From Sabellastarte sp. h YS-2021 (taxonomy: Eukaryota > Annelida > Polychaeta > Sabellida > Sabellidae): DNA of 64,000 nt. This document shows positions 19,306 to 56,640 of the stretch, one piece after another. The notes beneath the pieces are model-generated. The model saw only the letters and a program-made list of their open reading frames with translations. It was not told the origin of the DNA and ran no database searches. The DNA is taken from positions 5,828,001-5,892,000 of the forward strand of contig OZ024935.1 in assembly GCA_964017235.1 (NCBI GenBank), in the 5' to 3' direction. Each line of letters opens with the position of its first letter. Positions within the stretch are counted from its first letter, which is position 1. The position numbers were made by a program, and so were the translations under genes.

Positions 19306-20645
19306 TTTGGCACAAACTGATGAAAACTAGAAAACTCAATGTATCACTACACTATAGCCTGAATACAAAGAAAGATACCCAAACATTGAAAAATGTAAAG
19401 ACTAAGAAATATTGGTTGGCCAGAAACATGAGGGAGTCATCTTACTGGACAGGATTACTTTATATGGCTAAAGGAAACAAACAGGGATTTTTATTTTGAC
19501 ATTTCAGACCTTACCCAAAATATATCAGGATGCGTTGCTGCTGGGTGGCAGTGTCACAATTTATCACTAATCCAGTGAAATGTTGCAATTTCAAAAGTTC
19601 GGTCATACAAAATTCAACTACAGGAAGAATGAGGTTTGCTATAATGTAGACAATTTATTTACTTATTTATTTGGGTTTTACATCAGTTTCAACACTGTAC
19701 AGGTCATATCATAACGCTCAGTTGGAAGGGCAGAGGAAACCAGTACATACAGTTGGTCAAGGTTCTGCACTGTAAACTGCCGACCAATGGCAAGCAACTA
19801 CCAGCTTTCCCACTTGAGGCAGGGCCAAGAACCAAAGCCCAGCCTAAGAGGTGGGAGGCGAGAGTGTTACCACTCTGCCACCGTGGCCCCCATTAAATAC
19901 TATAGCAACATCATGTGTACCAAAGTCAACTGGACAGGCCACTGATATCTTCAAACCAATGTTCAACAGTGAATGCAAAAAGGCTATAAAAGCACATCAA
20001 AATGCAATGGATAAATGTCATACAAATCCATTGTCAGTTAACATTAATGAACATAAAATCTCCAGTGCTTGTAAACTAATTAAAGAAAATAAGAGATCAT
20101 GACATAATTATGCCAAATTATGCCAAAACTAAATATAAAGACACCAGCAAACAGCATTGGGAAAATATGTGGCAAACTCAGTAACACCACAATTAACCAT
20201 TAGGAAAATAAAGAAGGGACAAAAGTAACACAAAGAGCAGACATACCAAATATGTTAGGCAAAGAAATTCGCAACAATTACAAATTTTTAAAAAATGTCA
20301 AGAAGAGGCCGAAATAGAACACTTGGATTTTACAATGAAAAACTGTGACAGTTACAATCTGTAACTTGCTATTGCAGAATTGTGATGCTCTGAAGAAGTC
20401 TCATGACACAGATACTGATAGACCAGATGAACTCCATTATCAGCTCTTGAAACATCTACCAAGAGACTTATGGTGTTACTTGATATCTTTAATGACATAT
20501 TAGCTTCAAGCTGATAGTACTGAATGTTGAAAAGAGGCCACTGATGCATATTCCTAAGCCATGCAAAGAGTGAAAAAACATCCAATTGTCGTTCCATATT
20601 TCTGATGAGCTGTTTATGCAAAACCATAAAAAAATGCAACTATAT
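19306..20645 (+). mobile_element. Decayed I-like LINE fragment with internal deletion, copy 1
   Basis: Plus-strand relative of the LINE at 4-9.6 kb. It contains gag pieces (VSLHYSLNTKKD; AVSQFITNPVKCC), then jumps to the endonuclease/RT linker (CVPKSTGQATDIFKPMFNSE; AHQNAMDKCHTNPLS) and early RT, ending near 20,645. The gag zinc knuckles and endonuclease domain are missing. It retains a linker segment, absent from the 4-9.6 kb copy, between NINEHK and GTKVT. A SINE sits at the deletion region. Confidence 0.75.
19652..19890 (-). repeat. SINE family 1 copy in LINE fragment
   Basis: Full-length. The right flank ATTAAATACTATA equals the target duplication of the SINE at 36,126-36,364, so both LINE fragments carry the same ancestral insertion. 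The left duplication has been deleted here. Confidence 0.9.
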
Positions 20646-24317: not shown

Positions 24318-24600
24318 GTTAAAGATTATGGTTCTGGGTTTTAACCACATGTTTAATATCGAAGATTTTGTTTCCTTGTTATACCCTTGTGTCTATTCCT
24401 GAATATTTTAGTCTTAGGTTCAAAACTAATTGGTAAAATTAAAAGATTATGGTTCTGGGTTCTAACCCAATGTTTAATACCAAAGATTGTGTTTCCTTGT
24501 TCTACCCTTGTGTATTCCTGAATATTTAGCTTTAAGTTCAAACCTAATGTTTAATATTAAATTTATGGTTCTGTATTTTAACCCATGGCTTCTAGCTTGG
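24318..24600. repeat. 126-bp tandem repeat, about 2.3 units
   Basis: AGATTATGGTTCTGGGTT recurs at about 24,322 and 24,446, each followed by TTTCCTTGTT, ACCCTTGTG and TTCAAA. It matches the locus at 23,498-23,655 and ends with the same CATGGCTTCT. Confidence 0.85.
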
Positions 24601-26065
24601 AAAACAACAGTTTACCTCGGATGCAAAGTTGATAGACATAGGTAACCTTGATACCATTATGTATTCAGAAAGTACTGAAATCTTTGAAACAAATTGTGAC
24701 AATTTAACTGCAAATTGGAGTCAACCAGCTGTTGAAAAAAACGATATAAAGAACAACTTTCTTAGGCATTCTGCAAAGTGGATTTTAAAGCAACTTAATT
24801 TGTTTAACCCATGCTCAGGCATAACAAATAGTTCTGAAGGAATACGTAATGTCATTTAACAGCTGAGGTAGGACGGCCCATAAGATACCACTGCATTGTG
24901 CCTGAGTTTCCTTCAAAATAACTACTTGGGTGAAGCTTTAAAGGGTTTTGTGACAAGGGAAAATTTGCTTTAAAGAAAACTTTAATTATTTAATACAATC
25001 TCCAAGTGAGGTGAACTTCACAAATAATATTGACAGGCCAGTTCTCAAAATTGAAAACTATCAGGCGAGGATAAAATCCACATTTGATGAAAACATAAAT
25101 CACTAAAATGACCAAAATCCACCTTGTGCCACAGGAGAAAGTGAGGATGATAATACTAAGAATAATAAAATGTTGAAAGTAGGAATCCGACACAAACTGC
25201 TTTATCGTACACATTTTGCAAAGATGAATAACTTTATGGTAAGTGGAACAAAGGGAGATAAATATGCAGTGTCACTCTTTCCAAATGAATGTTGTGAATG
25301 TCCAGCTACATATACCTGTTATCACAATACCAGCAGTGACGCTGTCAATAGGTAACAGCTTCAAACAATTTTACAAAGATTCCAATCTTTTGCAGACCCA
25401 GGGATTGTGTAGCAGTCAGAGAAACAACAGTAATGGTTTGTTTATTTGGGGTTTTACATCGCTTTCAACACTGTACAGGTCATATCACGACAGGTAGTTG
25501 GAAGGGCAGAGGAAACCAGTACATAGAGTTCGCTAGGGTTGTGTACTGTAAACTGCCGACCAACGGCAAGCAACTACCAGCTTTCCCACTTGAGCCTGTG
25601 CGGGATCGAACCCCAGCCTCAGAGGTGGGAGGCGAGAGTGTTACCACTTTGCCACCGTGGCCCCTAACAACAACAGTAATGGAGCCATAGCAAAGACCAG
25701 TGAGTTATAGAAACATTGATGTTCTATCAAAGTCCAGAAGACAACTATTCCATTCCATGAATCTGCACTGAGGCTATAACTCCCATTCAGATGGAGGAAT
25801 ATAAGCCAAGGATACTAAAAAGCCAAGACCTGTGTCTTGAATTTATAATATTAACTGTACTAACTAAATATTTGAACAAATGGCATGCTCAACACCTGAA
25901 AGAAGGCAAAGAGTTGTGTTGGTCCCATTCAGGCTTGACTTCAAACTCATTAAGGAATTCAGAAAGGAGACAGTCAAACAAATAGGTGGGATGTATTTAC
26001 TTCCTAATTTTGAACTCAACTTAAATTACAACTTGTAAAGCAACCCACACCACAGTCACATCCTG
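24590..26065 (+). pseudogene. MULE-like transposase remnant with SWIM motif, copy 2
   Basis: Collinear with 18,555-19,305. It shows CDNLTANWSQPAVE, HSAKWILKQLNLFNPCSGIT, a SEGIRNVI helix, and near 25,240-25,330 GTKGDKYAVSLFPNECCECP followed by TYTCYH, completing a CxC...CxH SWIM pattern. A SINE interrupts it at 25,437-25,668. Further coding-like text (LVPFRLDFKLIKEF, IGGMYFLILNST) continues to about 26,065. It is better preserved around the SWIM motif than copy 1 but full of stops. Confidence 0.5.
25437..25668 (-). repeat. SINE family 1 copy
   Basis: Full-length, flanked by the 14-bp duplication AACAACAGTAATGG (25,423-25,436 and 25,669-25,682). Among the least diverged copies here. Confidence 0.95.
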
Positions 26066-27724: not shown

Positions 27725-28165
27725 GCAATATCCTCTTTCGACCTTGAAGGAGGGGTCCAAGGTCAAATCTAACCACACAAATACATTCCCAGCCCATGAT
27801 TTCCTATGGTTTACCATTCCAAACCTCTAGGACCAATTATAAATGAGTTATAAGCACTTTTAAGCTTGGCTGTCCTCATTTGACCTTGAAGGAGGGGTCC
27901 AAAGGTCAAATCTGACCATACCAAAAGATCCCGAGCCAATGATTTCCTATGGGATGGTTTACCATCCCAAATCTCTGTCACCAATAATAAGCGAGTTGTA
28001 GGCACTTTCAATTTTCGCTATCCTCATTTGACCTTGAAGGAGGGTTCCAAGGTCAAATCGGACCACACCAAAAGATTCCCACCCCATGATTTCCTACAGG
28101 TTGGTTTACCATCCCAAACCTCTAGGGTCAATAATAAGGGAGATAAGCACTTTTCATGACTGACA
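27725..28165. repeat. Tandem repeat, three monomers of about 145 bp
   Basis: TTTGACCTTGAAGGAGGGGT starts monomers at about 27,732, 27,874 and 28,022. Each continues with CCAAGGTCAAATC, GATTTCCTA and TTTACCATCCCAAA. Confidence 0.95.
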
Positions 28166-28269: not shown

Positions 28270-29465
28270 CTATAATATTTTTTTTCATCAGAGCAGTAAT
28301 GGTGAAATCTCTCTCTACACACTGCGGCTATCCAGTGGATACAATAATTTACTCAACAGTGAGAACCTGAAAGTAGCTATTGCTCAGCTATGCCATGACA
28401 TAGAGGTCTGCAATTTCACTATGTTATAGCTGACCAAAAATTCTGTGAATAACATATTTAACAAATTACTCTAAATGTAATAGTTTTCAAGTTACAACTG
28501 ATTTACTCAACAGTGAGAACCTCAAAGGAACTATTACTCAGCTATACAATGAGCTACATGTCTGAAATTTAACTATGTTATAGCTAACCCAAAAGTAGGT
28601 GAACAACATATTTAAGCAAACTACTGTAAATGCAATAGTTTTCAAGCTACAACTGATTTACTCAATAGTGAGAACCTGAAAATAGCTATTGCTCCGCTAT
28701 GCCATGAGCTATAGGTCTGTAATTTCACTATGTTATAGCTGACCCAAAAGTAGGTGAACAATATATTTTAACAAAATACTCCAAATGCAATATTTTTCAA
28801 GTTATAGCTGATTTACTCAACAGTCAGTACCTGAGAATAGCTATTGCTCAGTTGTGCCATGAGCTATAGGTCTATAATTTTACTATGTTATAGCTGACCC
28901 AAAAGTAGCTGAATAACATATTTGCACAAATTTCTGTAAATGCAATAGTTTTCCAATTATAACTGATTTACTCAACAGTGAGAACTTCAAAGTAGCTATT
29001 ACTCAGCTATGAAAAGAGCCACAGGTCTGAAACTTCACTATGTTATAGCTGACCCCAAAATAGGTGAATAACATATTGAAACAAAATACTGTAAATGCAA
29101 TAGTTTTCAAGTTATAAGTGATTTACTCAACAGTGAAAACCTAAAAGTGGCTATTACTCAGCTATGCCATGAGCTACAGGTCTGAAATTTTACTATGTTA
29201 TAGCTGGCCCAAAAGTAGCTGAATAACATATTTATACGAAATTCTCTAAATGCAATAGTTTTTAAGTTACAAGTGATTTTACTCATGATGGAAGTTACTG
29301 AAAAGCCCAAAAGTAGCTATTACTCACTTAGCTATTGAGACAGACACCCAACTTACTCACCATATTGTAGCTATGAAAAAAGTAGCTGAACAACATATTT
29401 TCACAAAATGCTGTAAATGCAACACTTTTGAAGTTATAAGTGATTTAGTGCATGATTTCATGAAT
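28270..29465. repeat. Tandem satellite, seven monomers of 155 bp
   Basis: ACTCAACAGTGAGAACCT recurs at 28,351, 28,505, 28,660, 28,815, 28,970, 29,125 and, more diverged, 29,281. The spacing is very regular (154-156 bp). Monomers include AGTAGCTATTACTCAGCTAT, ACTATGTTATAGCTGACC and AAATGCAATAGTTTTCAA. No coding potential. Confidence 0.95.
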
Positions 29466-29989: not shown

Positions 29990-31250
29990 CACCCTAACAA
30001 AATTACACTAAAAATCTCGTCTTATCTCTTTTACAGACTTTTGCTAAATCCTTGGTGCAAAGCTGACAAAATTGTCCGGATTAATATTTACAATTTGAAA
30101 TTCCTGTTTTAATAGCATTTTTTTGGGGGGGACTAAAACATTTTATATTTAAATTTACCAGTCAAACTACATGATTAAAAGCATCGCCATTAGGATTTCA
30201 CAATAACAACAGTACAGTTATTTGAAATTAAATAGCAGCAAAAATTTTTATTTTTTTGCAGCGACAAATATTAGAATTGATAATTCAGCAAGAAGAGTTA
30301 ATCGAGCATATTAATACTAATGTGCTAACAGTTTGCTGTTCAGTATATTTATTTATTTGGGGTTTTACGTCACTTTCAACACTGTACAGGTCATATCACA
30401 ACGGGTAGTTGGAAGGGCAGAGGAAACCAGTACATATAGTTCGCTAGGGTTCTGTACTGTAAACTGCCGACTAACGGCAAGCAACTACCAGCTTTCCCAC
30501 TTACGGCCATGACGGGGATCGAACCCCGGCCGCAGAGGTGGGAGGCGAGAGTGATACCACTCTGCCACCGTGGCCCCTGCTGCTGTTCAGTATAAGGAAT
30601 TATTCAAGCATATAATCACTTGCATGTTAACTCTTGCTGGTTTAGCATAAGAAGTTAATTGAGCAGATAGATATTAAGTGGTAAAATGTGGGGGGAGAAG
30701 GACTAAGGTAAAGCCATGGGATTTTCATTCTCGTGCAACTGTCCTTTCAATTATTAATTAATAAAGCATACAGTTTTCCACCAGGCAGAAAAATCAGTAT
30801 CTCTCTGGTCAATTCTTTCTTTTGATTCCTTACAGATTATTGGGGTGCATATATTAGTAGTAATTTAAATAACAAACTTGTATTACAGTATGCTTTTCCT
30901 TTTCTGATGGCTTATGGGCATATATGGTGGTGCAAACTTGGTGCTGGGTTTATTATCAAGCTACTGGCATTTCAGTATAATGGACACAGAAAATAAACAT
31001 CAGGCGAAGCTAAACTTTGCTCAAAGAATATCAAAAATGAGTAAGTTTTCATTAAGAATATAAAAGATGAGCAAAAGTTAATTTATATGATTTTTGTTTC
31101 TTAGGAAACATTAAAGGTGTAATACAATTTGGATATTTCTTTTTCTAGAATAGCAGAAGTCCTTTGTTCAACACTGAGGGCCTTAGACCATAAACCCACA
31201 GAACATTGAGTGGAAGACTTAGCGATAGCATTATTACTAGTATTCAGTTG
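29990..31250 (+). pseudogene. Spliced gene-like unit B
   Basis: Collinear with unit A from about 21,300 to 22,200. The exon from 30,262 after TTTTTTGCAG is intact and reads RQILELIIQQEELIEHINTN, a likely coiled coil. The start exon has ATG 30,980 (MDTENKHQAKLNFAQRISKM) with donor GTAAGT at 31,041. The next exon starts after TTTTCTAG at 31,149 (EVLCSTLRALDHKPTEH) and then meets a stop where unit A reads on. A SINE lies after the first exon. Confidence 0.4.
30347..30580 (-). repeat. SINE family 1 copy
   Basis: Full-length, flanked by TGCTGTTCAGTAT at 30,334-30,346 and 30,581-30,593. Confidence 0.95.
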
Positions 31251-35559: not shown

Positions 35560-36960
35560 AAAGTTGCAAAGTCATTTCTTAGACTTTCTTCACTTGGTGT
35601 AAGTAAGGCCATTGTGTCAATACTAGGATCAGATTCCCTTCAATATTAAGAAACTAAGGAATAGAAGTATTTAGTTGAAGTGGACGAAGAAACGAAAAGC
35701 AACCAACTGACAAAAACTAGCTAGAAAACTCAATGTATTACTACACTATAGCCTGAATACAAAGAAAGAAGTCTCTAGATACCCAAACATTGAAGAATGT
35801 ACAGACTAAGAAATATTGGAAGGCCAGAAACATGAGGCAGTCATGTTACTGGACAGGATTACTTTACTTAGAGATGGCCAAAGGATTTTTATTTTGACTT
35901 TTCAGACCTTACCAAAAATATATCAGGGTGTGTTGCTGCTGCGTGGCAGTGTTACAATTTATCCCCAATTCAGCGAAATGCTACAATGTCCAAAGTTTGA
36001 TCATACAAATTTCGACTACAGGAAGAATGAGGTTTGCAATAATGTGGATCTTCTTGATATTAAAGGGCATTCCTTCACTGATATCAGAAAAGTTCCCTCA
36101 ATTTTTAATTAAATTAAATACTATATTTACTTATTTATTTATTTAGGGTTTTACATCACTTTCAACATTGTACAGGTCATATCACGACGGATAGTTGGCA
36201 GGGCAGAGAAAACCAGTACATACAGTTGGTCAAGGTCCTGTACTGTAAACTGCCCATCAATGGCAAGCAACTTCCAGCTTTCCCACTTGAGCCAGGGCCG
36301 TGAACCGAACCCCGGCCTCAAGAGGTGGGCGGTGAGAGTGTTACCACTCTGCCACCGTGGCCCCAATTAAATACTATAGCAACAACATGTGTACCAAAGT
36401 CAACTGGACACTCCACTTGTATCTTCAAACCAATTGCCAACAGTGAATGCAAACAGGCTATAAAAGCACATCAAAATGCAATGGATAAATGTCATACAAA
36501 TCAATTGTCAATTAAAATTAATGAACATAAAATATCCAATGCTTGTAAACTAATTAAAGAAAATAGTAAGAGATAATGACATAAGTATGTCAAAAATAAA
36601 TATAAAGACACCAGCAAACAGGTATGGGAAATGATTAGGAAAATATGTGGCAAACTCAGTAACACCACAATTAACCATTTGGAAAATAAAGAAGGGACAA
36701 AAGTAACAAAGAGGAGACATACCAAATATGTTAGGCAAAGAAATTCGCAAGAATATCTGCAGCAACAATTACTATTTTTTTAAAAATATCAAGAAGAAGC
36801 TGAGATAGAACACTTGGATTATACAATGAACAACTGTGAAAGTTACAACCTGTAACTTGCTATTACAGAATTGGGATGCTCTGAAGAAGTCTCATGACAC
36901 AGATACTGGTAGACCTGACGAAATCCATAATCAGCTCTTGAAACATCTACGAAACATCTA
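35560..36960 (+). mobile_element. Decayed I-like LINE fragment with internal deletion, copy 2
   Basis: It shows gag pieces (KAIVSILGSD; LLDRITLLRDGQR; FDYRKNEVC), then directly the endonuclease-RT linker (DIKGHSFTDIRKV; CVPKSTGHST; AHQNAMDKCHTNQL) and early RT (LKKSHDTDTG-like), with frameshifts. It lacks the same gag-knuckle/endonuclease block as copy 1 at 19.3 kb and contains the same SINE. Confidence 0.75.
36126..36364 (-). repeat. SINE family 1 copy in LINE fragment
   Basis: Full-length with duplication AATTAAATACTATA (36,112-36,125 and 36,365-36,378). Same insertion as the SINE at 19,652-19,890. Confidence 0.95.
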
Positions 36961-38289: not shown

Positions 38290-40900
38290 AAAATTTCCCA
38301 ACCTATAAATTTTCATATTTTCTTTCTGACATACCCTATTTGAATAATCTTGTTAAATTAACAATTTAATTGATAATAAGTTAAACACTGTGAGGACAAT
38401 ACACCATTTCTGATGTGATGTCCGAGTCAAAAGATGAGCATTGCTGATAGCTCCGAGGCAGTGTGTGGGGGTCCAACTGCCTCATCTGCTGATGAAACAA
38501 CAGATTCTTGCCATGAAGCTTAAGGATACCCTAAATGATCAATGCTACTACTTCAAAAGCCAACGTACACCAACTCATAGGATGTCATTGATGAAAAGAC
38601 TGATAATTCTGACCTACTGTGGATTCTGATAAGACCACAGGCACTTGACAGATCACATAACAACAAGAGCCATGTGACATTCCTGTGACCATTAAAGAGA
38701 GGATTTATACTGAGGAATGACAGAATGCTTTCCCAGCACCTTTGTTGCATGAACTCTGAAATGCTGAAGAGCTTTTAAAATTACAATCAAAAGAACAATT
38801 TAGACCGATACTGATTTATTAACGTTACTGTTAAAACTAGTCATAGGTTATTGGGTTGAGTTTTGTTAGCTGCTATTGTCTGGTAAAACAATTTTATCTG
38901 TTATTATCTGGTAATATCAAAACTTGTTTATACTCTAGTAACAAGGGAAAGTTTGGTATCAATGGGTGAATATATTTGTAAAATTCTGGTATTTTTGGTT
39001 GTATTAATGATCTGGTAGACAATGTTCTGTGTAGTTGGTTTTGTTAATTATGCATTAAACAAAAGTATTTTAGTATTCCTGGATATATTAACTACGTGTA
39101 AACCAGGGCTATAGGTTTGTTTGTGCATTTAACTGTTGGTAAATACATGGTATTAGATTAAGTGTTAATGTTTCATTTGTAAGTATTATACACATGATAA
39201 ATCTTTAGTATGAATACAGCTACATTGATGCTTATCTCATTGTTTATTTTGACTTGGTGAGCCACCTGCTCAACTGAGTAGTGTAAGAGGTTAAACATTT
39301 CTATTAATTTAGGTTAACAAATGAATCTGGGCAATGTTACGATCATAACTGAGGTAACTTATATATTTGGTTATGCTCAACAAATGTTCACTGGTAGCTT
39401 ACAGCTAGGAGTAAGTGTGGCTCAATGATGACCACACAGAGACCTACCCTGTAATCTTGTGATCGCGCCTGTTAGATTAAGTGGTCTATACACACACCTG
39501 TGTAACAGTCATACATGAATCCACCTATTTGCTTATCGGGAACATGTTAAGAGTAGGAACTGGATTGGCTCTTCAAGCCGGAAAGACCGAGTTTTGCACT
39601 GATCAATATAGATATGTGTATAGTGGTTTTATTAGTTCTACTATATCTGTACTATTGTTGATGGCTTAAGAATGAAACATTTTTATGTTTATTATAGATA
39701 ATCTTTTTGTTCTTCCTATCACTTTTACTATTTTATCACAACTGTTTTTTTTTTCATTCTCATACTAGTGGAGGAGATTTTTTACATACATTAGCTGTAT
39801 GTTTGTTCATGCGCTTTCTGATTCTCAAGTACTTTGTTACATGTTAAAAGTACTGCCCTAAATGGTTATACATAAAACAGGCTGATAACTGTCTTCACAT
39901 CACAAGCTTTTTTTTGTTCCCAGAAACACAAAAACAAGACAATGATAAAACAATTTCCATCTGTCTAAAATCCAATTAAGCTTGGAGACTTTTAAGGAGT
40001 GGTTCAAAATAAAGATGCCTTTCCCAGATGCAAAAAAGAACCTCATTAAGAGAACAAATCACAAGAGTATGGAAATTGAAAATGAAAGAAAAAAAACATT
40101 TCAACATTAAAATCAAAGAAAAGCTACCCAAAACAGAAACAAAATAAACAAAAGCCTAGGGAGGGGCCAAAAATCAACTTGCACAAATAATATTGCCATT
40201 TTGTGGTCCTGCCAAATTATGTACGCTAAGCCACAAAAAAAACATTAATGGATGTTGCAGAAAGTTCCTGTATATGTGATATTAATCTTAACATTATACA
40301 CAGCAATTTACAATGTTAGGGTTTGATGGACATCCTTTTCAGCAGTGAATTTTTATACACATGCATTACCATTAGCAAAGTCAAACTTAGGGTTTTGCGT
40401 CCTGTCAACAGGCAGATATCATATTACCATTATCAGGACTTAAACCCACCACCATAAGATTGAAGATCAATTGTCAGTTGCACATACGGCAAAAATAGAA
40501 AAAAAAACGAGAATAGGCTACATAAGTACATATATAACCTGCGACACTCCTCAATTTAGCACAAAACAGAATATATAGAATATCAATTGACTAAATATTT
40601 TTGATGGTAAAGAACATTTCAGAAGTTCGAATCACTCCTGTCAAATCATATTTTAAAGAAATCCATGTTGTTAATGAAGAAAGTATAAATAAGAATTTTG
40701 TGTCTGAAGTGTGTGCCAAATTATGCACGTAGTACATTAGTTTGCCTTCGATATGCTAATGCAATAAAAACAAAGATGTCTGGAACTCATGAATAATCAC
40801 GCATGCGCGGGAACTACAGAGCCGTTAGTTTACAAACAATAAGGTTGCTTCTGCTCAGCTACCCAAGTTCGTCTCCTACCTTAAAAGCTGAAAAGGGAAG
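38290..40900. other. Unannotated stretch before the Ngaro element
   Basis: Mostly AT-rich with no recognisable gene. Near 40,385-40,420 and again near 48,245-48,290 a motif beginning CTTAGGGTTTT with TCAAAC before it recurs, possibly an old repeat. Confidence 0.35.
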
Positions 40901-40907
40901 GCAATAT

Positions 40908-41108
40908 TGTACGACACGGCCTGTATAGGGGCCTGTCCAGTCAGTTTATGGTCGACCTTAATAGAATTTACTATTGCTGTTCTGGTTCGTAGTTCTCCAC
41001 CAATAGCAGGTCACTTCACGCTTCATGAAGCGTTTGAAACGATAGGGTCCATCATATTGGATTCTGCAATCGAAGGACATACAAGGTTATAGATAGAAGT
41101 TAAAATAG
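40908..41108 (+). repeat. Ngaro split repeat A1
   Basis: 201 bp, identical by eye to A2 at 46,340-46,540. It contains the 16-bp palindrome ACGCTTCATGAAGCGT (41,018-41,033). Being at the 5' end, it probably carries promoter sequence. The short open frame across it is not a gene. Confidence 0.95.
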
Positions 41109-41169
41109 TGAATGAAAAATCAAATTATTTTATGGTTTTAGTTGTTTTAGTTGGTTTTAAATCAAAAGA

Positions 41170-42447
41170 ATGCCTGCTTCTAGTAAGAAGTCACCATTAA
41201 CTACGACTAAGAAAAAGAAGGCAACTCCTGTACCAGGCAAGAATAAGAAGAATGGGGCTGTGAAGAAGGGCAAGAGTAAGGACTTGGTGAATAGCAAAGA
41301 CGGTTCGTACCTTAATGACGATAGTCAATCCATGTTAGCTTCTGTAGCAAGTCCGCCCCATACTGTAGCAGCGTCGTCAACTTCTGTAGATCACACAGTA
41401 CTGAGTGTGTTGGCCCGGCTGGAGCAGTCAAACTCGGAAGTTATGAAGCGGTTGGAAAGACTGGAGCGGAACAATACTATCACCTCAACCCCAGCATCAT
41501 CACCTCAGTCGGGACCTAGGGACAATGTGACCTTCAAATTACCACAGACCAAGGTCACATCGCCTGGCGCTCAGAAGTTGGGAGATCTCACTCCTCATGC
41601 GAGCCTACTTAATGCTTATAAGTGGCCAGCCAGGGAAGAAATGCCAGCACCAACTTCACTGCATCCTCAGTCACGGGACAGTAGATATCCTGGGAATTAT
41701 AAGCCACCAGCAGAGCAGGAGCAGAGGCGAGGCTACGACAAGGACGCGATTGTCCCCAGTTTGGAGCGGTTGAGGGCAATGCCTCACGTGGCGTCCACGG
41801 TTTCTGACCTTCTGGCCCAGTTTGAAACACAATCACACCATGATGTTCTGCAAGGTAAGGGCTTTCTACATAGGAAAAAATCTGGTAGATATAATATAAC
41901 AGATATGCCAGTGGGTAGACCTGAGGTGAGGTGGCCCAATGAGGGGTTTGTGTCCTCTTCAAACAGCAAGAAACCGGCATTTGATGAGATGAACCTGCAA
42001 CAGTGGGCGGTAGGTCAGCTCAATAATGCTTTGCAAATCGACGATAACACCTTGCTGCGACATGTGCTCAGGCAGATGATGTTGGCACTGAACGATTCCG
42101 TAGCCTTGCCGTGGCCAGCCGTGAGGGCCGCCTGGGCTGTCTCAATGACGGAGGTTGAGGAAGGTAGGCTTCAATGGCATGATACCACACAATGGGCCCT
42201 GAATCGTGTCAGTTCCTCTCAAATTGCAGTCATTAATAGTCAGAATGTGTCTTCCTTCGGACAGAAGAGTCGTATTTGCAAATTTTACAATGAGGGATCG
42301 TGCAGCAATGAAGGTAACCACGGTATCTACAGACATATCTGTTCCTTGTGTTCCAAGCAAGGTCGTACCTCATCACATCCAGAATTTAAATGTAGTTTTC
42401 GTGTGAACGTCAGATCACAAGAGGTCAAGGCAGTGTCAGCAAGGTAG
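41170..42447 (+). CDS. Ngaro ORF1, gag-like protein
   Basis: 425 codons from ATG 41,170 to TAG 42,445. The N-terminus is Lys-rich (KKSPLTTTKKKK), then comes a predicted coiled coil near residues 74-100 (LARLEQSNSEVMKRLERLER) and a conserved middle region. At residues 370-408 lies a Cys/His cluster (CKFYNEGSC ... HICSLC ... HPEFKC) of the kind found at the C-terminus of DIRS/Ngaro gag proteins. It is likely the structural RNA-binding protein. The stop is followed in the same frame by open sequence into ORF2. Confidence 0.85.
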   Translation: MPASSKKSPLTTTKKKKATPVPGKNKKNGAVKKGKSKDLVNSKDGSYLNDDSQSMLASVASPPHTVAASSTSVDHTVLSVLARLEQSNSEVMKRLERLERNNTITSTPASSPQSGPRDNVTFKLPQTKVTSPGAQKLGDLTPHASLLNAYKWPAREEMPAPTSLHPQSRDSRYPGNYKPPAEQEQRRGYDKDAIVPSLERLRAMPHVASTVSDLLAQFETQSHHDVLQGKGFLHRKKSGRYNITDMPVGRPEVRWPNEGFVSSSNSKKPAFDEMNLQQWAVGQLNNALQIDDNTLLRHVLRQMMLALNDSVALPWPAVRAAWAVSMTEVEEGRLQWHDTTQWALNRVSSSQIAVINSQNVSSFGQKSRICKFYNEGSCSNEGNHGIYRHICSLCSKQGRTSSHPEFKCSFRVNVRSQEVKAVSAR

Positions 42448-45195
42448 GAGCCAGCAGGATCACCTGGACAACCTGCAAGGACAAAACAGAGCTATGTGTA
42501 TAAAGTAACAGACAATAAAGTTAAATTAAATGAAGATAACAATAATGAACAATCAAGGACAAAACAGAGCTATGTGTATAGAGTTACAGACAATAAAGTT
42601 AAATTAAATGAAGATAACAATAATGAACAATTAAGTGGTGTTTATATGAACAGAATGCATTTAGTTAATAAGCAAGGGTGTAAAAATGATACTAATGCTT
42701 ATGATAATGGTTGTGAAAATATGTATTACGGTAATATGAACAATGCTAAATATTTACAGCATGATATATTGTCTGGGGCTGTCCAGGGGGGTGGCAGCAG
42801 TGATGGTCGGGCACCAGAGTTAAAAAAATTTCGGGTTTTCAATGCCTGGGGTGAATTGAAATTGTCGTTTGCTGCCATCTCCATGGACGGGCCATGGGAA
42901 GAACAAACAAAAGTGAGGGGGAATCAGATGGTAAACTTCGATAGTATACCATACACTGTGCTTCGCATTGTGAGTAACCATGGCGAACGCCACCGGCAGC
43001 TATTGCATATAGATGGAGAAGAGGGATCTGACCTCCAGGGTTTCTTCTGGTGGTTTCAGGAAAAGGGAGATATAAGATTACAAATTTTGCACAGGGATAT
43101 TGAACAGTACATGGAAGTCGTAGGAAGGGGTCACTTTTTAATACGAACTAATTCAAAATTCCAGTTTATCACAAAGGATTTGAAGCAGGAGGCAAAGCAA
43201 GCCTATTGGGAATATATGAGAGAAAAAATAGCTTGGGAGCGCCATGGTTGCTCGTATGTGAAATATATGCAGTATGTAATTGATGGTCTTATACATCAGA
43301 TGGAAAATATTAATGTACAAAGTGATGATGAAAGTATAAAGGTCGAATCACAACCATTGACTGATGGTATTGTCGAGGACAAGATGGGGACTTGTATTAG
43401 GGAACGCGTTCGGGTTAATCCGCGTAACAACTACGATCTGTCGGATTATAATATACTAACCAAGAAGGTGGGTCATCTGGCATTGGACAGTACAGATTTT
43501 CGATTCATCGGTCCGGATCGTTTGCCTGTAGCCATAGATTCGATAGATAAGTGCTTAAGAATAGGAACAATTATAAGGAATACAAACTTACCTAACTATC
43601 GCATGGCAAGAATTCCTTTGATATCAGGCCTGAATATCCCAGCTTGGGAGCGACAATTGCAGGGTTATCCAGATGACAGATTAATTCAATACATAAAATT
43701 TGGCTTCCCTCTGTCCCTGATATCTCCAGACAGGTTGCATAACCAAGAGGTATCCAATCATTTTTCGGCTCGACAGTATCCACAAGATATACAGAAGTAC
43801 TTGAACAAAGAAATTAGTTTGGGGGCCATGCTGGGTCCTGTTGATAGCGTGGATTCTAAAGATTTCCACTGTTCACCTTTAATGTCACGACCTAAGGATG
43901 GGGATAGTAGAAGGGTCATCATGGACCTCTCATTCCCCCAGGGTAATGCATTAAATGATCAGGTAACTAAAGAAAAATTTGATGGTACTCCTTTAGTACT
44001 GAAACTACCTTCTATTGATGACTTTGTTAAAGACATTGTTAGTATCAAGGAAGACCCAGTTATGTTTAAAATAGATGTGGCCCGAGCCTTCAGGAATCTA
44101 CCTGTAGACCCAGTCGATGCCCTTAAGTTGGGGATTAAGTGGGAGGGCAGTTATTATCTGGATAAGTCGGTCGCGTTCGGCTGGATCTTCGGGACAGCTT
44201 CGTTCCAATTATTATCAGACTCCATAGCTTACTTCATGAGAGATTATTGTAATCTTCACTGCTACATAGACGATTATGTAGCAGTTTTACCTAAAACTAA
44301 AGCAGACGTAGCTTTTGATAAATTATGTTCACTGTTGCAAGAGCTGGGCCTCCCCTTGAATATTGCGAAGCTCACCCCCCCCACCAAACGCCTCACATAT
44401 TTGGGCATTGACATTGATCTTGATAGTAACACAATGGCCATAAACGAAGAAAAATTACAGGATATTTATGCAGAGTGTGTTAAGGTCAGGGGTCAAAAAT
44501 ACCTGTCTAAAAACAAGTTCCAGGCGTTGATGGGGAAACTTTTATACATACAAAAGATAGTGAAACCGGCTCGAGTGTTTATTAATAGGATTTTGGCCAC
44601 ATTTAGGGAAGGTAGTCATAAACAAAAAATTTATTTAAACAAGGCCTTTCACGCAGATATAGACTGGTTTATTAAGTTTCTCCCTTCATTCAATGGGATC
44701 ACCTTCATTGAAAAGAACGCGGTCGATGACACCCAGTCACTATTCCTGGATGCATCCCTTACTGGGTTGGGGGCAGTCTGGAGAGATCGTGTATATGCGA
44801 CTCCAGTGAGGGACATACCAGGCTTTGTTCTAACAATCGTACATCTGGAGATGTTCAATGTCTTGTTGGCCTTGAGGGTTTGGGGTCAACACTGGCGTCA
44901 TTCAAGCGTCAAAATTTTTTGTGACAATCACAGCGTTGTCCAGGTGGTCAAAAATGGCAAGACTAGGGACCCTTTTCTGGCACTGTGCATAAGGAATATT
45001 TGGCTTCACACAGCAATATATGATGTTCATTTAATCATTGAACACATTGCTGGTAAAGAAAATAGGATTGCTGATACTTTATCTCGCATACATTCTAATA
45101 AATTGGTGGATGAAAATATATTGAAGCATTTAGTCAAAAATTATCATTGGGAACCGATTTTCCACTCTTATTTTGACTTGACCTTGCATATATAA
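42448..45195 (+). CDS. Ngaro ORF2, reverse transcriptase-RNase H
   Basis: Same frame as ORF1 and open from the codon after its TAG. The first in-frame ATG is 42,646; residue numbers below count from 42,496. Residues 1-50 are two 26-residue repeats. Residues about 108-270 form a Trp-rich domain I do not recognise. RT follows: KIDVARAFRNLPVDP with Asp527 and CYIDDYVAV with Asp592-Asp593, as in DIRS-type RTs. RNase H has FLDASLTGLGA (Asp752), HLEMFN (Glu785), FCDNHSV (Asp810) and RIADTLSR (Asp860). No methyltransferase domain follows. The enzyme would copy the element RNA into circular DNA. Confidence 0.9.
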   Translation, partial: EPAGSPGQPARTKQSYVYKVTDNKVKLNEDNNNEQSRTKQSYVYRVTDNKVKLNEDNNNEQLSGVYMNRMHLVNKQGCKNDTNAYDNGCENMYYGNMNNAKYLQHDILSGAVQGGGSSDGRAPELKKFRVFNAWGELKLSFAAISMDGPWEEQTKVRGNQMVNFDSIPYTVLRIVSNHGERHRQLLHIDGEEGSDLQGFFWWFQEKGDIRLQILHRDIEQYMEVVGRGHFLIRTNSKFQFITKDLKQEAKQAYWEYMREKIAWERHGCSYVKYMQYVIDGLIHQMENINVQSDDESIKVESQPLTDGIVEDKMGTCIRERVRVNPRNNYDLSDYNILTKKVGHLALDSTDFRFIGPDRLPVAIDSIDKCLRIGTIIRNTNLPNYRMARIPLISGLNIPAWERQLQGYPDDRLIQYIKFGFPLSLISPDRLHNQEVSNHFSARQYPQDIQKYLNKEISLGAMLGPVDSVDSKDFHCSPLMSRPKDGDSRRVIMDLSFPQGNALNDQVTKEKFDGTPLVLKLPSIDDFVKDIVSIKEDPVMFKIDVARAFRNLPVDPVDALKLGIKWEGSYYLDKSVAFGWIFGTASFQLLSDSIAYFMRDYCNLHCYIDDYVAVLPKTKADVAFDKLCSLLQELGLPLNIAKLTPPTKRLTYLGIDIDLDSNTMAINEEKLQDIYAECVKVRGQKYLSKNKFQALMGKLLYIQKIVKPARVFINRILATFREGSHKQKIYLNKAFHADIDWFIKFLPSFNGITFIEKNAVDDTQSLFLDASLTGLGAVWRDRVYATPVRDIPGFVLTIVHLEMFNVLLALRVWGQHWRHSSVKIFCDNHSVVQVVKNGKTRDPFLALCIRNIWLHTAIYDVHLIIEHIAGKENRIADTLSRIHSNKLVDENILKHLVKNYHWEPIFHSYFDLTLHI
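42480..42635 (+). repeat. 78-bp in-frame tandem duplication in ORF2
   Basis: Two copies of a 26-codon unit (TKQSYVYKVTDNKVKLNEDN core), differing at a few bases. They precede the first ATG of ORF2, so they are translated only if the ORF1 stop is bypassed or an upstream start is used. Confidence 0.9.
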
Positions 45196-46181
45196 TTGTA
45201 GATCGAAATCTGGGAGCTCCTTCCAATGCCTTGGCAGAAGCAGCAATTCACAGAATCAGGATAGCATACAGACCATCCACCAGGGCTTCTCATAGAGTCC
45301 ACTTCTCCACTTACCTGGCATTTGTGTTATTTATGGATTTACCCTTGGAATTCACAATTCACTCCATCATTACTTTTCTTGAATATCTGTTCATCAATCA
45401 GATTTCTTATAAGGTCATGTTAAATTACATGTCATCTTTAAGATTCATGGCAAAAAATTATCACTGGGACATAGCCCCTTTAGAGAGCCCCCTGGTGGGG
45501 GCGTATCTTAGGAGTATAAAAATTAACTTCACCTATTCCCCAACAGTCAGAGGTGTGTTTGATATTAATATGATGCATTCTATTTCGGCGGCTTGCGACA
45601 TTCTCTCAGACCCCCCCCTCTTCAGAGCTGCCTTTTTAATAGCTTTCTTTGCATTTCTGCGCATGTCAAACATTGCCCCCCATTCCAAGGCGGCTTTTGA
45701 TCCATACCGCCACATTCTCCGTCAGGACGTATTGTTCCTTCATCCAGGGGCCCATATTCTGTTGAAATGGACAAAAACCTTGCAAGATCGATCAGCCCAT
45801 CACTTTGTTCAGATTCCAAACCTTAAAAATCCCCGACTATGTCCTGTCAGGGCTATCAAGGAATTGATTGAGTCTAGACCCCTCCATCCTCAAGCTCCCT
45901 TATTCGTTCACAAAAATTCTCCTTATACCGTGGTTATAGACACCACCATCAGAGCGGCATTGAAAACCGTCCTTACCCATTTACACATTCCTATTAGAGG
46001 GCATGGGTTTCATTCCTTCAGAAGATCTGGAGCTACCATGGCATTTGATAATAATGTTCAGCTCCAACACATTATGGCCCACGGGTTATGGCGGAGCTCG
46101 GCGGTATGGCAGTATTTGCAAAACGCATCTGTGGCTCCCTCCATTATCCCTCTCACCTTTGCCAAGGTCATTTCATCTTAG
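45177..46181 (+). CDS. Ngaro ORF3, tyrosine recombinase
   Basis: Open frame from just after a TGA at 45,174, overlapping ORF2 by 19 nt in the -1 frame. The first in-frame ATG (45,333) would remove part of the N-terminal domain, so translation by frameshift or from a spliced transcript is possible. Counting from codon 45,231, catalytic residues are Arg144 (FLRMSN), probable Lys182 (WTKTLQ), His261 and Arg264 (HSFRRSG), His284 (AHGLW) and Tyr295 (VWQYL). The full R-K-H-R-H-Y set is present. It should integrate the circular element DNA. No defect seen. Confidence 0.9.
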   Translation, partial: LDLAYIIVDRNLGAPSNALAEAAIHRIRIAYRPSTRASHRVHFSTYLAFVLFMDLPLEFTIHSIITFLEYLFINQISYKVMLNYMSSLRFMAKNYHWDIAPLESPLVGAYLRSIKINFTYSPTVRGVFDINMMHSISAACDILSDPPLFRAAFLIAFFAFLRMSNIAPHSKAAFDPYRHILRQDVLFLHPGAHILLKWTKTLQDRSAHHFVQIPNLKNPRLCPVRAIKELIESRPLHPQAPLFVHKNSPYTVVIDTTIRAALKTVLTHLHIPIRGHGFHSFRRSGATMAFDNNVQLQHIMAHGLWRSSAVWQYLQNASVAPSIIPLTFAKVISS

Positions 46182-46196
46182 CTCGGATTGGCGCTG

Positions 46197-46341
46197 GGTG
46201 GTTTTTCAGATTTCATCCATAAAATCTGCAAACTTTATATTTTAAACATATACTAACATGTAAAATAAAATATGCCCAAACACTCAGCAGCTTACATTAT
46301 TCTGACCTTGTGGCTTTAATCTACGACCTCTAGAAACTGTG
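46197..46341 (+). repeat. Ngaro split repeat B1
   Basis: 145 bp, identical by eye to B2. It begins GGTGGTTTTTCAG and ends AAACTGTG. It overlaps A2 by two bases (TG), recreating the junction expected in the circular form. Confidence 0.95.
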
Positions 46342-46540
46342 TACGACACGGCCTGTATAGGGGCCTGTCCAGTCAGTTTATGGTCGACCTTAATAGAATT
46401 TACTATTGCTGTTCTGGTTCGTAGTTCTCCACCAATAGCAGGTCACTTCACGCTTCATGAAGCGTTTGAAACGATAGGGTCCATCATATTGGATTCTGCA
46501 ATCGAAGGACATACAAGGTTATAGATAGAAGTTAAAATAG
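46340..46540 (+). repeat. Ngaro split repeat A2
   Basis: Second copy of the 201-bp A repeat. It is followed by 193 bp of unique sequence before B2. Confidence 0.95.
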
Positions 46541-46733
46541 CCCTCCAGTCCCACCCCCACGTCCAGCAGGCTAAACGATTGTATTATGATGGGGTGCATG
46601 GGTTTGGGTACTAGTTGCCAAAATAAAATTAATTCTTTTATGTTCACTAGTTGTAACAGTTTTTATTATTTTATGTGATATCAGGTTCTTTTACACGAGT
46701 TGTATTCATTTTATCAGAGAGCATATTGTGATT

Positions 46734-46878
46734 GGTGGTTTTTCAGATTTCATCCATAAAATCTGCAAACTTTATATTTTAAACATATACTAACATGTAA
46801 AATAAAATATGCCCAAACACTCAGCAGCTTACATTATTCTGACCTTGTGGCTTTAATCTACGACCTCTAGAAACTGTG
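46734..46878 (+). repeat. Ngaro split repeat B2, 3' terminus
   Basis: Second copy of the 145-bp B repeat. The element ends at CTGTG and host sequence ATAATGAAAC follows. Confidence 0.95.
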
Positions 46879-48655
46879 ATAATGAAACAAGCGGAACAAG
46901 TGCTTTTACCTCTGATGTATTTACAGAGAAAGATAATTAATTGCTAATAGGTTTAAATGTTGTCAAAAATGCAATTGAGGAACTTGGATACTAGTAGGCC
47001 ACGAACTTGTGTAGCTGAGCAGTAGTTACACACTTGTACCACTGATTCATATTGTATGCATAAAAATATGAGGTCACGGAACACCACGGGGTTCCCTCAT
47101 ATTTTATTGATAGAAATGTAACTTGAACACCAAGCATTTGACGTTAAACAGCTATACTATGAAAAGACAGGATTTTAAAAAATACAATCAATACCCAGTG
47201 ATTATGCAAATGTGCTTTTAAAATAAATACACAGTAAATTTTTCATCAAATTTGGAATTTTACGCCCCGTTTAATACACGGTACGTTGGAACGTAATTAT
47301 AGTAAAATGTAAGATCAACGATATACTGTATACATAGTCTTAAATTAAGAAGAAAACAGTATTACATAAATTTAAAACTGGCCAAATAATTATTTTACAC
47401 AATACTCACGGTTTCTTAGCAGAAAACTTCTCCCGGCAATAAAATAAAAAGATTACTGTACAGTAAGTAACCTTAACTGTACTACTTCCGAAATTATAAC
47501 AAACCACAAGTAATTTAAATACCTTTCATTTCTCAAATATGAATGGAAGAAAGTCTGCTCCGGTCATTGTTTCAAACAACTTCTTGTCCTTCTGACGAAA
47601 ATCTTTGAAATGTGAGTCACACCTCTGAACTCCGTGCCTTATATTAAACCCCAAAAACAGAATTGCAAAGGGGACACCTGTTTAAATCACCCAGGACAAC
47701 CCAATATATATTGCTCACCTGGGAGGGAAATTAGCAAAGCACATACAAATTTATGCAACTTAGTTTATTATTGAAATGGCTTGGTTGGCGTGTTAAACAG
47801 AACGGCTCAAATTGTTTGACATCATGAAAAGTTACCCTCAAAGGACTGCAGATAGAGTTTCCAAGCCGATTAGATTCACAATAAACTGTCTTTTGAAGTG
47901 TAAACATATTGCTTTCTGTCCTGCGGACATAATCCGATTTATAAATATCATATTATTGGTGTCTTAATATATTGATTTTTTCTAAGAGCTTATACAATAT
48001 GTAGAAGAGTGGACTATTTTAAATATCCCGCGCGAGATATATACAGACTTTCTGAATACAATAATTATGGCACAGACAATATTATAATGGTTAGTTGACC
48101 CAATTAATGATGTCACAGTTTCTGGAGGGGGCAGTGTATTCATTTGTTTATTTCCCCGCGTTTGTCCGTTCAATTTAAAACTAAGTCCATAATACTGCAC
48201 TATTGACAATGCATTAAATTAAAACCTCCCCAAAGTTCAAACTTAGGGTTTTACATAACGTTCACAAGCCAGGGTAATATTACAAGAGGTCTTTAATATT
48301 GTTAACCTCTTGTTGGGGGGGTGGGTAGAGATGACCGCGTCTGTGACAACATGGCAGACTCACTGGTACCTAAATTAAACCTAATTACAATAATTTTCAA
48401 CCATTTAATTTTAAAGTATTATGCAGGTTTATCATACGTTTTATAGCAGCATTTTTTTTTTCTTTTTATATACATAGCTATGGAAACTTCTCATTAACAA
48501 AGCCAAAAACTTCTGATTTTGTAGTCTCTGGTAACAACGGAGGTTAAATCAGAATACTACACTGTACGAGTGCCCTATATCATACATGCCGTAGGTTGAT
48601 TTCTAACGAGCAAACCGACACTAGAGTCTGGGGTCAATTTCACAAAGGACTCTGG
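46879..48655. other. AT-rich stretch with one hairpin
   Basis: No gene recognised. At about 47,062-47,106 AAAATATGAGG pairs with CCTCATATTTT, with an inner GGAAC/GTTCC stem. Confidence 0.45.
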
Positions 48656-52589: not shown

Positions 52590-54085
52590 TAGATAGATAG
52601 ATAGGTTCTTTATTATACTCTTACCTGGTATTAGTACAATAAATAAATTAAACACAGTTTATACCAAATACATATTACAGACCCAGACAGCCAGGTTGGG
52701 CTTATGAGAGAGTCTCAATAAATTTATAGAAAAAAAACACTGACACAGTGTTACATAATGATTCATTGTATAACTGTTAAGCAGTGTATTGAACATTTAA
52801 ATATACCTGCATGTAGATAAGGTGTCATATAGCTGTAAAGCTATATTGGTACTGTTATTGTCATAATTAGCTTACACAAGACCATGAGTGTTTACCTTTG
52901 TCAACAGTAATTGTTACAACTCAAATCTAAGCCATTGATATCAAGTGCTAAAGAGAAACCACTCTGATTTTACAACAGTTTACATTCAAAGAAAAAAGAC
53001 TGTCCTCCTTAACAGCATTATAAAATTACAAAGTCTGTCCTGAAATTTATTAAGACACAAAGTTAAGAAATTAATATAAAATGCTGAAAAATATCTATAT
53101 GTTCTAGTTGACAATACATTTATACCCATCACCCAACAGGTTTGTCAACCTCAGCAACAATACACAATTACAAAATTTAACCTGAACTTTACAATAATAG
53201 CTCATACATGCTGATATTGTGATATATGACTTTATACTATGGAAATGATGGTTACTTCAAGGCGGATGTACTCTAGCCCAATAGTGATTGTCTTTGTTCA
53301 AATGTATCTTGAACATATTTTGCAAACTTGTATATCAATTTTTTACCCATTAACATCTGCCATTTTAGATCCCAACCCGAGGTTAAGAAGTTAATATCGA
53401 GTACAGAAAAGAAACTATGCCTTTCAAACAGTTTACATTCAAAGACAAAGTGATCTTCATCTTCAACTGCATTACAGAATTTGCAAAGTCTGTCCTGAGG
53501 TTTATGAAACAGTCCAAAACGTATTGTTTCTATATTTAAAGGCAATGTCCCACTCCTCAGGTGAGCAATTAAAGAGAGTTGACTCCTTAATGAGTTTGCT
53601 TCCACATATGGTTCCACAGCATATTCATATTTATAGGTGGCATACGTCCGCAGCTTACTTTGATTAGAAAGATTCATAGCCCAAATATTTTTGTGTTTGT
53701 CATATATTTTTCCTTCAACTAGTGATAGAGTAAATGCATGGTCTACTGAGACAGAGGATAAATTGTCTGGAATTTGAACCTCGCATTGATGCAAAATGCA
53801 GCAAACATAGTAGCTCCAAGTTTAAAGACCTGTTTAGTGAAACAATTTTTATCCATGCAAAGTGGACGACACTAGAGTGCAATAATCGCTGTGTGCCTTT
53901 GATCTAAGGGGGGTGTCCATCCTGTATCTCCAGAGATGGCAACAGTGGAGACAAAACAGTGTACCCCTGAAAAGGCCCTCAAAGCTCTATTTTGAATCAC
54001 TTGTGGTTTGTTGAAATTTGGGTAGCCACACACACCTGCACAGTAGTCCATTACTGGTACCACACAACTGTTATACAATTTGTTA
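52590..54085 (-). mobile_element. LINE of unassigned clade, 3' half
   Basis: Downstream half (minus strand) of the LINE split by the L2. Coding remnants: KLYNSCVVPVMDYCAGVCGY and VIQNRALRAFSGVH at about 54,078-53,880; then an open 173-codon piece at 53,794-53,273 with LRSQLSLIAHLRSGTLPLNI and the finger DRLCKFCNAVEDEDHFVFEC. The 3' UTR ends in a GATA-type tetranucleotide repeat near 52,591-52,605. A decayed second version of the finger region lies at 52,915-53,050. Confidence 0.7.
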
Positions 54086-54089
54086 CAGA

Positions 54090-55483
54090 TTTGACTGTTT
54101 TAGACATTCATTTATGACTGCACCTTGTGCCCTTGTAGATGATTCTGCCAATGTCCCTATTGTACATATAAATATAGCTCTCTCAGTGGACTCAGGAAAG
54201 GCAGTGGCCCTAACATTATTAGACCTATCTGCTGCGTTTGATACGATTGATCATTCTCTTTTACATGACTGCCTGCATGACTGGTTTGGTCTAGATGGTA
54301 CTGTTTTGTTGTGGATCAAATTGTATCTTTCAAACCGTAAACAAAAAATTAAAATAGGTGATAGTTTCTTTGAGGCGGTAATTCTCCCTTTCGGAGTCCC
54401 CCAATGCTCCGTATTGGGTCCTCTCCTTTTCACTCTTTACACTAGTCCCCTCAGTCAAGTTATTTCAAAATTCAATGTCACTCATCACCTATATGCCGAT
54501 GACACCCAGATCTATTTAGCAGTTGACTCCAGGAACTTTGATTCTAGCATGGAAGAGCTGACAGAGTGTCTCAAGTCAGTACAGGAGTGGATGGATGGCG
54601 TTAAACTAAAACTAAACCCAGAAAAAACCGAATTTATCATTATAGGTCAAAAAGCCACCAGAGAGTCGCTGGCACCAAATTTCCCTGTTCCACTCCTCCA
54701 AAATAATATCTCTCCGTCGGTGGAAGTAAAGAATCTGGGTGTTATTTTCGACTCAGATAACTCCTTTGACAAACATGTTGCGAAGGTTTGCCAAGCATGT
54801 TACTATCATCTTCGTGATTTGCGACGAATTCACAAATTCCTTAGTGTTGACACTGCAATACTTCTGGCAAATGCTATGGTCAGTAGTCGACTGGATTACT
54901 GTAATGCCTTACTTTATGGGGTAAGCAAGTCTAACATAGCTAAACTACAGAGAGTTCAGAATGCTCTCTGCCGCTTCATCTTCAGACTTGACAAAATGAG
55001 TCATGCTACACCCTTTTTGGAAAAACTTCACTGGCTTCCAATTCAAAATCGTATCCTCTTTAAGTACAATCTTCTGGTATTTAAGGCTATCAATCTTTCA
55101 CAGCCCCCGTATCTCTCAGCTTTAATAAGATCAAGCAGTCTCACTCGCGGCAACAGGTTATCTGTCTCCTCAACCCGCCCTAAGAAACTCATAGGCAGAC
55201 GTGGCTTCGCAGTAGCCGCACCAGCTGAATGGAACAAGCTGCCACAGACTGTCAGATCTCAGCAAACAATAAATGGTTTCAAAATCCAGCTAAAAACTCA
55301 CTTGTTTAGGCTGGCATACCCCCCCCCCCCCCCCCCCCCCCCCCACCTTAGTTATACCCTGGCGGGCGCTTTTGGATGTCGACCCATGCCTGTCCCTGGA
55401 TTTCCATTTTTGGACTTAAGCGCATTAGAGGATTAGTATCAATTTTGCGCTCTATAAATCCTACTATTATTATTATTATTATA
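54090..55483 (+). mobile_element. 5'-truncated L2-like LINE
   Basis: About 449 codons are open to TAG/TGA-type stop at 55,436. RT blocks: LLDLSAAFDTIDH, GVPQCSVLGPLLF (Gly of the usual PQGS is Cys here), LYADDTQIY. The L2/CR1 tail follows: LANAMVSSRLDYCNALLYGV, LEKLHWLPIQNRILFK, AAPAEWNKLPQTVR, QLKTHLFRLAYP. A run of 26 C (55,319-55,344) encodes Pro. The 3' end is TTGCGCTCTATAAATCCTAC then ATT repeats, typical of L2. The upstream part of ORF2 is missing. It is inserted antisense into another LINE. Confidence 0.85.
55319..55344 (+). repeat. Poly-C tract of 26
   Basis: Uninterrupted C run inside the L2 ORF, kept in frame as proline codons. Such runs are prone to length errors, so the frame downstream should be treated with care. 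Confidence 0.9.
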
Positions 55484-55486
55484 AAG

Positions 55487-56640
55487 TCTAGGAATTCATC
55501 AAGGACGCATCCAAGATATTTGTATTTATCTACTGTTTGTAACACAAATTCTCCAGAATAAAACTTAAAGTTACTTCTGGGTTCGTTCCATTGTCGAAAG
55601 TGTATTATATTGGTTTTATCATTATTCACCATCATTCTAAACTTCTTACACCAGCCATCCACACTATTCAACATTGTCTGTAAATTTTCTTCTGTTAGGG
55701 CAAGTAATACAATGTCATCAGCATAAAGAAAGATGGCAAGCTTTTCATCTCCAAGTGATACTCCCAGCCCCAGTTGGTTAATTGTAGAAGTGAGTTCATT
55801 AATGTACAGTGAAAATAACAATGGCGACAGAATATCTCCCTGTTTAACTCCTGCTTTGGTGTTGAACTACAAACCATATTTGTTATTTATTACTACTGAA
55901 CAGATGGTTTTATTGTAAATTGTTACTAAAGACTTATATAAGTTACCACATATTCCAAGTTTTAAACATTGATGCAACAAACAATTTCTGTCAACAGTGT
56001 CAAAGGCCTTTGTCATATCAATAAACCAACAAGATGTGCTCTTATTTAGTAGTTTTCTGTTCCTAATAACTGATGTAAATGTAAAACTATGATCAATACA
56101 GGCATGGTCTTTCCTAAATCCATTTTGCTCATCTGCAAGTCAATTAGTAGTTTCAAGGTAATAACTGAGTCTGTTATTCAGCAGTCATGTGAAGATTTTG
56201 TAAATATGTGATAAGACTAACTCCTCTGTACTTGCAAACATGGTTGAGTCCTTGTTCCTTTCTTTTGTAGTGGAGTTATAAGAGATTTAGACCATTCATC
56301 TGGTATAACACCTGCTATAAAGCATTTGTTGAAAAATTTAAGTAGCATGTCACGCAAAATTGGCAATTTTAAAATTTCGCTTGGTATGCTGTCATGTCCC
56401 ACTGACTTGCCACCTTTAGCTGACTTTTTAACACTGATAAGTTCATCCATTGTAAATTCACCATTGTTCACATCCTGAAGCATTTGTGGTTTCCATCTTT
56501 TCCTTGTTTCTAACAATGTCTTCACATAAAGTCTCATCAAACTCATTACCTTGGGCCTGTGGATTAAACAGAGATTCAAAATAGTCACTCATTGTCATAA
56601 ATGGACCTTGTTCATACAACAGTATATTACTTGAAACCTG
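55487..56640 (-). pseudogene. LINE of unassigned clade, RT region
   Basis: 5' side (minus strand) of the split LINE: MSDYFESLFNPQAQ near 56,600, MDELISVKKSAKGGKSVGHD, IPDEWSKSLITPLQKK, FRKDHACIDHSF, WFIDMTKAFDTVDRN, GVKQGDILSPLLFSLYINEL, FLYADDIVLL, and YKYLGCVLDEFLDF at the L2 junction. The catalytic YADD is intact, but several stops and frameshifts occur. Upstream parts are absent. The clade is unclear (RTE/jockey-like search hits would be expected). Confidence 0.75.

Follow-up and report, generated by a model that had tools for sequence, protein, structure and literature searches.

A near-intact Ngaro-type retrotransposon with identical split direct repeats in a Sabellastarte contig

Ngaro elements have been described with the layout A1-[ORFs]-B1A2B2, the open reading frames being a Gag-like frame, a reverse transcriptase/RNase H (RT/RH) frame and a tyrosine recombinase (YR) frame (PMC8547959). 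According to PMC4157794, their internal repeats lie downstream of the recombinase and they have no methyltransferase. In a Xenopus Ngaro element the A repeats are 236 bp and the B repeats 152 bp in length, and both pairs are 100% identical (PMC9210276). The same source describes Xenopus Ngaro families in which the ORFs overlap; Ngaro and Viper elements are usually described as being without ORF overlaps (PMC3266345). Among molluscs, Ngaro elements have been reported at low copy number in bivalves and two gastropods (PMC10294476), as well as in an aplacophoran (PMC10810820).

An element of this layout is encountered in a window of 64 kb from the annelid Sabellastarte, the window being the whole stretch of DNA that was analysed. 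The element occupies positions 40908-46878 of the forward (+) strand, is 5,971 bp long and is arranged as A1-[ORF1, ORF2, ORF3]-B1A2B2. We hold with high confidence that it is best explained as one near-intact Ngaro-type retrotransposon that was inserted recently. The element is a further member of a known group of animal retrotransposons that use a tyrosine recombinase, and is ordinary in kind. In 1-kb windows, its G+C content is 39-46% compared with about 33-35% alongside. A preliminary description had called the element Ngaro-type; the order of the repeats, the RT/RNase H, the recombinase match and the lack of a detectable methyltransferase all agree with this name, which rests on architecture and domains.

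The split direct repeats are present in the order expected for Ngaro. A1 (40908..41108, +) forms the 5' terminus and begins with TG, while B2 (46734..46878, +) forms the 3' terminus and ends with TG. The internal repeats are located downstream of the recombinase gene: the stop codon of ORF3 ends at 46181 and, 15 bases past it, B1 starts at 46197 (46197..46341, +), followed by A2 (46340..46540, +), which overlaps B1 by a TG. Alignment of the pairs, for which identity had been suggested earlier, gives 201/201 identical positions for A1 and A2 and 145/145 for B1 and B2, and neither pair can be extended by a single base on either side. With the TG at 46340-46341 common to B1 and A2, 344 distinct base pairs were compared and there are 0 mismatches. 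The starts of A1 and A2 are 5,432 bp apart, and those of B1 and B2 are 537 bp apart. Chance is no candidate for two identical repeat pairs of such length. None of the eight inverted pairs of at least 20 nt found in the repeat comparison joins the ends of the element as inverted terminal repeats. Of the other repeats in this comparison, a 78-bp tandem duplication in ORF2 and a 32-nt inverted pair in the flanks look real; the remaining short ones, none of them above 47 nt (at 70%), may be due to chance.

If the two ends of the element are closed into a circle, so that the TG ending B2 and the TG beginning A1 become one, the result is exactly the B1-A2 junction, and this bears out the suggestion that the termini fit a circular tyrosine-recombinase intermediate. 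Next to the element, the left flank has CAATAT as its last bases and the right flank ATAATG as its first. Beyond the terminal TGs, the two flanks share only a 2-bp AT when read by eye, as would occur by chance in 1 of 16 cases. For DIRS1-like elements, integration at a 3-bp junction without target duplication has been described (PMC3266345), and this model is here applied to TG. Following the published model, the transcript of the element would be reverse transcribed, and pairing with the internal B1-A2 segment would allow the copy to close into a DNA circle with the junction B-TG-A. The element's own tyrosine recombinase would then recombine the TG of the circle with a chromosomal TG, and integration would make no target duplication beyond this dinucleotide. 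The present copy most likely goes back to one insertion event, in which a DNA circle recombined at TG.

The first of the three frames, ORF1 (41170..42447, +, from the ORF list), is Gag-like by position; it starts with ATG, encodes 425 aa and has its TAG stop at 42445. The C-terminal stretch, which begins at residue 373 of an open frame of 428 residues, is rich in Cys and His, and from its position we take it to be a Gag-like nucleic-acid-binding stretch. Searches of Pfam and PHROG with ORF1 gave nothing, and in NCBIfam no match came near the cut-off.

ORF2 (42448..45195, +), which carries the RT and RNase H, is open directly past the ORF1 stop and in the same frame, although the ORF list starts it only at GTG 42496 (end 45195). 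Pfam RVT_1 matches it at 2.6e-9 (37.5 bits against a curated cut-off of 29.6) and RVT_3 at 8.1e-5 (23 bits against a curated cut-off of 21.6). Counted from 42448, the RT motifs are D543 and YIDD at 606-609, and the RNase H motifs are D768, E801, D826 and D876. Sequence searches of the PDB with ORF2, and with its RT/RH part, gave 0 matches.

ORF3 (45177..46181, +), assigned to a tyrosine recombinase by PHROG match and motifs, has the same orientation as the RT/RNase H frame, and lies in the -1 frame relative to it. It matches two integrase families, phrog_1 (6.4e-9) and phrog_216 (5.4e-5), over residues 138-302, so that the presumed catalytic Tyr 313 lies outside the alignment. The recombinase motifs, counted from 45177, are R162, K200, H279-x-x-R282, H302 or W305, and Y313. 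The catalytic meaning of these residues (R, K, HxxR, H/W and Y), and that of the D/YIDD and D-E-D-D motifs of ORF2, is presumed here. Pfam and NCBIfam contain no integrase or recombinase match to ORF3, PDB sequence searches with ORF3 and with its catalytic part gave 0 matches, and structure prediction without an alignment was unusable (mean pLDDT 33.1).

The statement in the preliminary description that all three ORFs are open with complete catalytic residues holds for the RT, RNase H and recombinase motifs, all of which were located; in ORF2 and ORF3 the first in-frame ATG comes only well into the frame. The stronger statement, that the element is structurally intact, stands in part. No stops occur inside the three frames, but a single TAG divides the frame common to ORF1 and ORF2, and ORF3 is without an early ATG.

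The border between ORF1 and ORF2 consists of this one in-frame TAG (42445), and the first ATG of ORF2 (42646) is 66 codons further on. Shortly past the TAG there is an in-frame tandem duplication of 78 bp, or 26 codons (42476..42631, +, from the repeat comparison), the copies of which are 97% identical. In 5,000 dinucleotide shuffles of the 120 non-redundant bases of this linker, one copy of the 78-bp duplicate being omitted, the openness of the linker had P = 0.027 in its own frame and 0.085 in any frame. This suggests that the linker is probably, though not surely, coding or formerly coding. A codon score in the linker also favours the ORF frame (0.091 against -0.186 and -0.787). However, this score is weak evidence, since at the end of ORF1 it does not single out the right frame (-0.021, -0.328, -0.003). 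The fold of the RNA past the TAG is no more stable than that of shuffled sequences (z = 0.87, with 165/200 shuffles at least as stable) and so no readthrough signal is seen.

At the border between ORF2 and ORF3, the frames overlap by 19 nt including the ORF2 stop. The ORF list starts ORF3 at TTG 45231, and the first in-frame ATG is at 45333. No slippery heptamer of the form X XXY YYZ was found by eye in the overlap (45177-45192), and the RNA past the ORF2 stop folds no better than shuffles (z = 0.37, 124/200). A TTGTAG at 45196-45201, just past the ORF2 stop, could be a splice acceptor. A scan for bacterial promoters and terminators, which is ill-suited to an animal element, found nothing above shuffles. 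The products of ORF2 and ORF3 may be reached by readthrough, reinitiation or splicing, or the arrangement may reflect decay.

Decay has the most to say for itself among the alternatives, and it is compatible with the assignment to Ngaro. It supposes that the element is already dead, either because a nonsense mutation produced the TAG at 42445 in what had been a continuous Gag-Pol frame or because ORF3 is not expressible. ORF1 and ORF2 do share one frame, the linker between them is open at the P values given above, and RNA folding past the TAG offers no sign of readthrough. On the other hand, separate Gag-like and RT/RH ORFs have been reported for other Ngaro elements (PMC8547959, PMC9210276), so that a stop at this place may be normal, and no other frame damage is present in the element. 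We regard a dead element as doubtful but worth serious consideration.

It is also conceivable, if unlikely, that in this lineage the polymerase is produced fused to Gag, through readthrough of the single in-frame UAG, and that the recombinase comes next in the -1 frame. If true, a tyrosine-recombinase retrotransposon would here be expressed in the manner of a retrovirus. Within the open-access papers searched, none was found that treats Ngaro and readthrough together; PMC8226300, which was returned for DIRS, tyrosine recombinase and stop codon readthrough, is, as far as its available text goes, not about recoding of such elements. How the polymerase is expressed, given a TAG that separates the Gag-like from the RT part without a change of frame, is a small, testable question.

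How long ago the element was inserted can be estimated from its repeats and its frames. The absence of mismatches in 344 bp places the pairwise divergence of the repeats below 0.87% (95%). When the repeats are combined with the 4,968 coding bases, in which no new stop has arisen, the element has diverged by less than about 0.33% per site since insertion (95%), a bound that assumes neutral substitution, no gene conversion, near-identical repeats at the time of insertion and a TAG that is original. Near-identical repeats at insertion are implied by the published model (PMC6681497). It had been suggested that the completeness of the element reflects recent activity. A recent insertion is indeed supported by the 0 mismatches between the repeats together with the absence of stops inside the three frames; the divergence bound speaks for recent insertion and not for present activity.

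The repeats might also be identical by gene conversion or by assembly collapse, in which case the insertion would be older and the element could still be filed under Ngaro. Repeat identity alone is compatible with conversion, over the 5,432 bp between the starts of A1 and A2 and the 537 bp between those of B1 and B2. The frames, however, are independently without further stops, and the chance of no new stop at 1% divergence is 0.103. This count assumes that the TAG at the ORF1/ORF2 border was there from the start, and the argument is weaker if the TAG is a mutation. An older insertion with homogenised or collapsed repeats is very unlikely in our judgement.

No methyltransferase is seen in the element, since ORF2 ends just 35 residues past the RNase H motif IADTLSR and a scan of the three forward frames for [DNS]PP[YFWT] gave no match; the domain is also absent from the Pfam results for ORF1-3. 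Hardly any credence can be given to the reading that the element is PAT-like and resembles Ngaro only through loss of the methyltransferase. PMC4157794 proposes such a methyltransferase-loss lineage in C. briggsae and has split repeats arising more than once. It also describes an echinoderm form of Pat1 whose internal repeats are placed otherwise than those of the nematode form, so that placement alone does not speak against the echinoderm form. However, the internal repeats here lie downstream of the recombinase, as in Ngaro and Viper and unlike the nematode form of Pat1, and the Pfam and motif scans gave no trace of a methyltransferase, although this is not decisive.

The near-intact Ngaro-type element is enclosed by the two arms of a 32-nt inverted repeat (88%), which lie outside it at 40848..40879 (+) on the left and 46994..47025 (-) on the right, as found by repeat comparison. 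With up to 3 mismatches allowed, the core of this repeat occurs only in those two places in the window, and 0 times in 100 shuffles. On the simplest reading, the element may have been inserted between the arms of a short palindromic repeat, possibly a MITE-like target. A MITE is not confirmed, since the window has no further copy of the core.

The remainder of the window had been described as an otherwise decayed landscape, and this fits a LINE-like element split over several ORFs (4372-9178) and RT fragments (54018-55821). The former, on the minus strand, has its endonuclease, RT and RNase H parts distributed over three different ORFs, preceded by an ORF with a zinc-knuckle match below the Pfam cut-off; inverted-repeat matches suggest that pieces at about 19515-20632 and 36367-36870 are related to it. 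The latter consist of two ORFs on opposite strands with RVT_1 matches of 2.8e-21 and 3.4e-12. Two stretches, 18557-19153 and 24590-25170, are repeated at 89-93% (repeat families D9 and D18). Tandem arrays resembling satellites are located at 12260-13614 (period about 169 bp), 27729-28154 (about 148 bp) and 28340-29285 (about 155 bp). In addition, a dispersed, SINE-like repeat of about 238 bp has 10 copies within 3838-52156 (for example, 30348-30585). It appears to resemble repeats of molluscs, but ARAGORN and Rfam found nothing in the 64-kb window.

Second copies of the Ngaro-type element were searched for in the masked 64-kb window. A tblastn search with the three ORFs (E<=1) returned no rows, and blastn returned six short rows, the best being 41 bp at 83% (E 0.002), which were taken as chance. 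In collections of viral and prokaryote contigs, two scans for relatives matched 14 and 4 stretches, 0 of which were confirmed by tblastn, and one scan had no pattern match; such scans, with single-protein queries, detect close relatives only, and records near the window's genome were possibly left out. As a young full-length copy, the element is an aid to annotating the family in its host. It is also a test case for the circular-intermediate model, under which both the junction and the empty site can be predicted exactly. Nothing here alters existing knowledge of Ngaro elements.

Similarity to other tyrosine-recombinase retrotransposons is partial. DIRS1-like elements have the recombinase and a short junction overlap, which is 3 bp compared with TG in the present element, but they are described with inverted terminal repeats, internal complementary regions and a methyltransferase (PMC3266345), none of which was found here. 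PAT-like elements share the split direct repeats, RT/RH and YR, but carry a methyltransferase, and none was found in this element. VIPER of kinetoplastids has A1...B1A2B2 repeats and no methyltransferase, as in the present element; VIPER/TATE have been reported in kinetoplastids (PMC6681497), whereas this element resides in animal DNA. Within Ngaro, amphibian elements have an ORF for an SGNH hydrolase, whereas here there is no long ORF past ORF3 and no Pfam SGNH match in ORF1-3. The element further differs from other Ngaro elements in that ORF1 and ORF2 share a frame and are separated by a single stop, and in the short -1 overlap of ORF2 and ORF3, although the Xenopus ORFs are reported to overlap too. 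With Ngaro it has in common the A1-[ORFs]-B1A2B2 layout, the order Gag-like, RT-RH, YR, and the lack of a methyltransferase. Its size is like that of Cafeteria Ngaro types 1-4, which are about 6 kb (PMC8547959), and in the length and identity of its repeats it is close to Ngaro elements of the DIRS order such as DIRS-53_XT of Xenopus tropicalis (PMC9210276).
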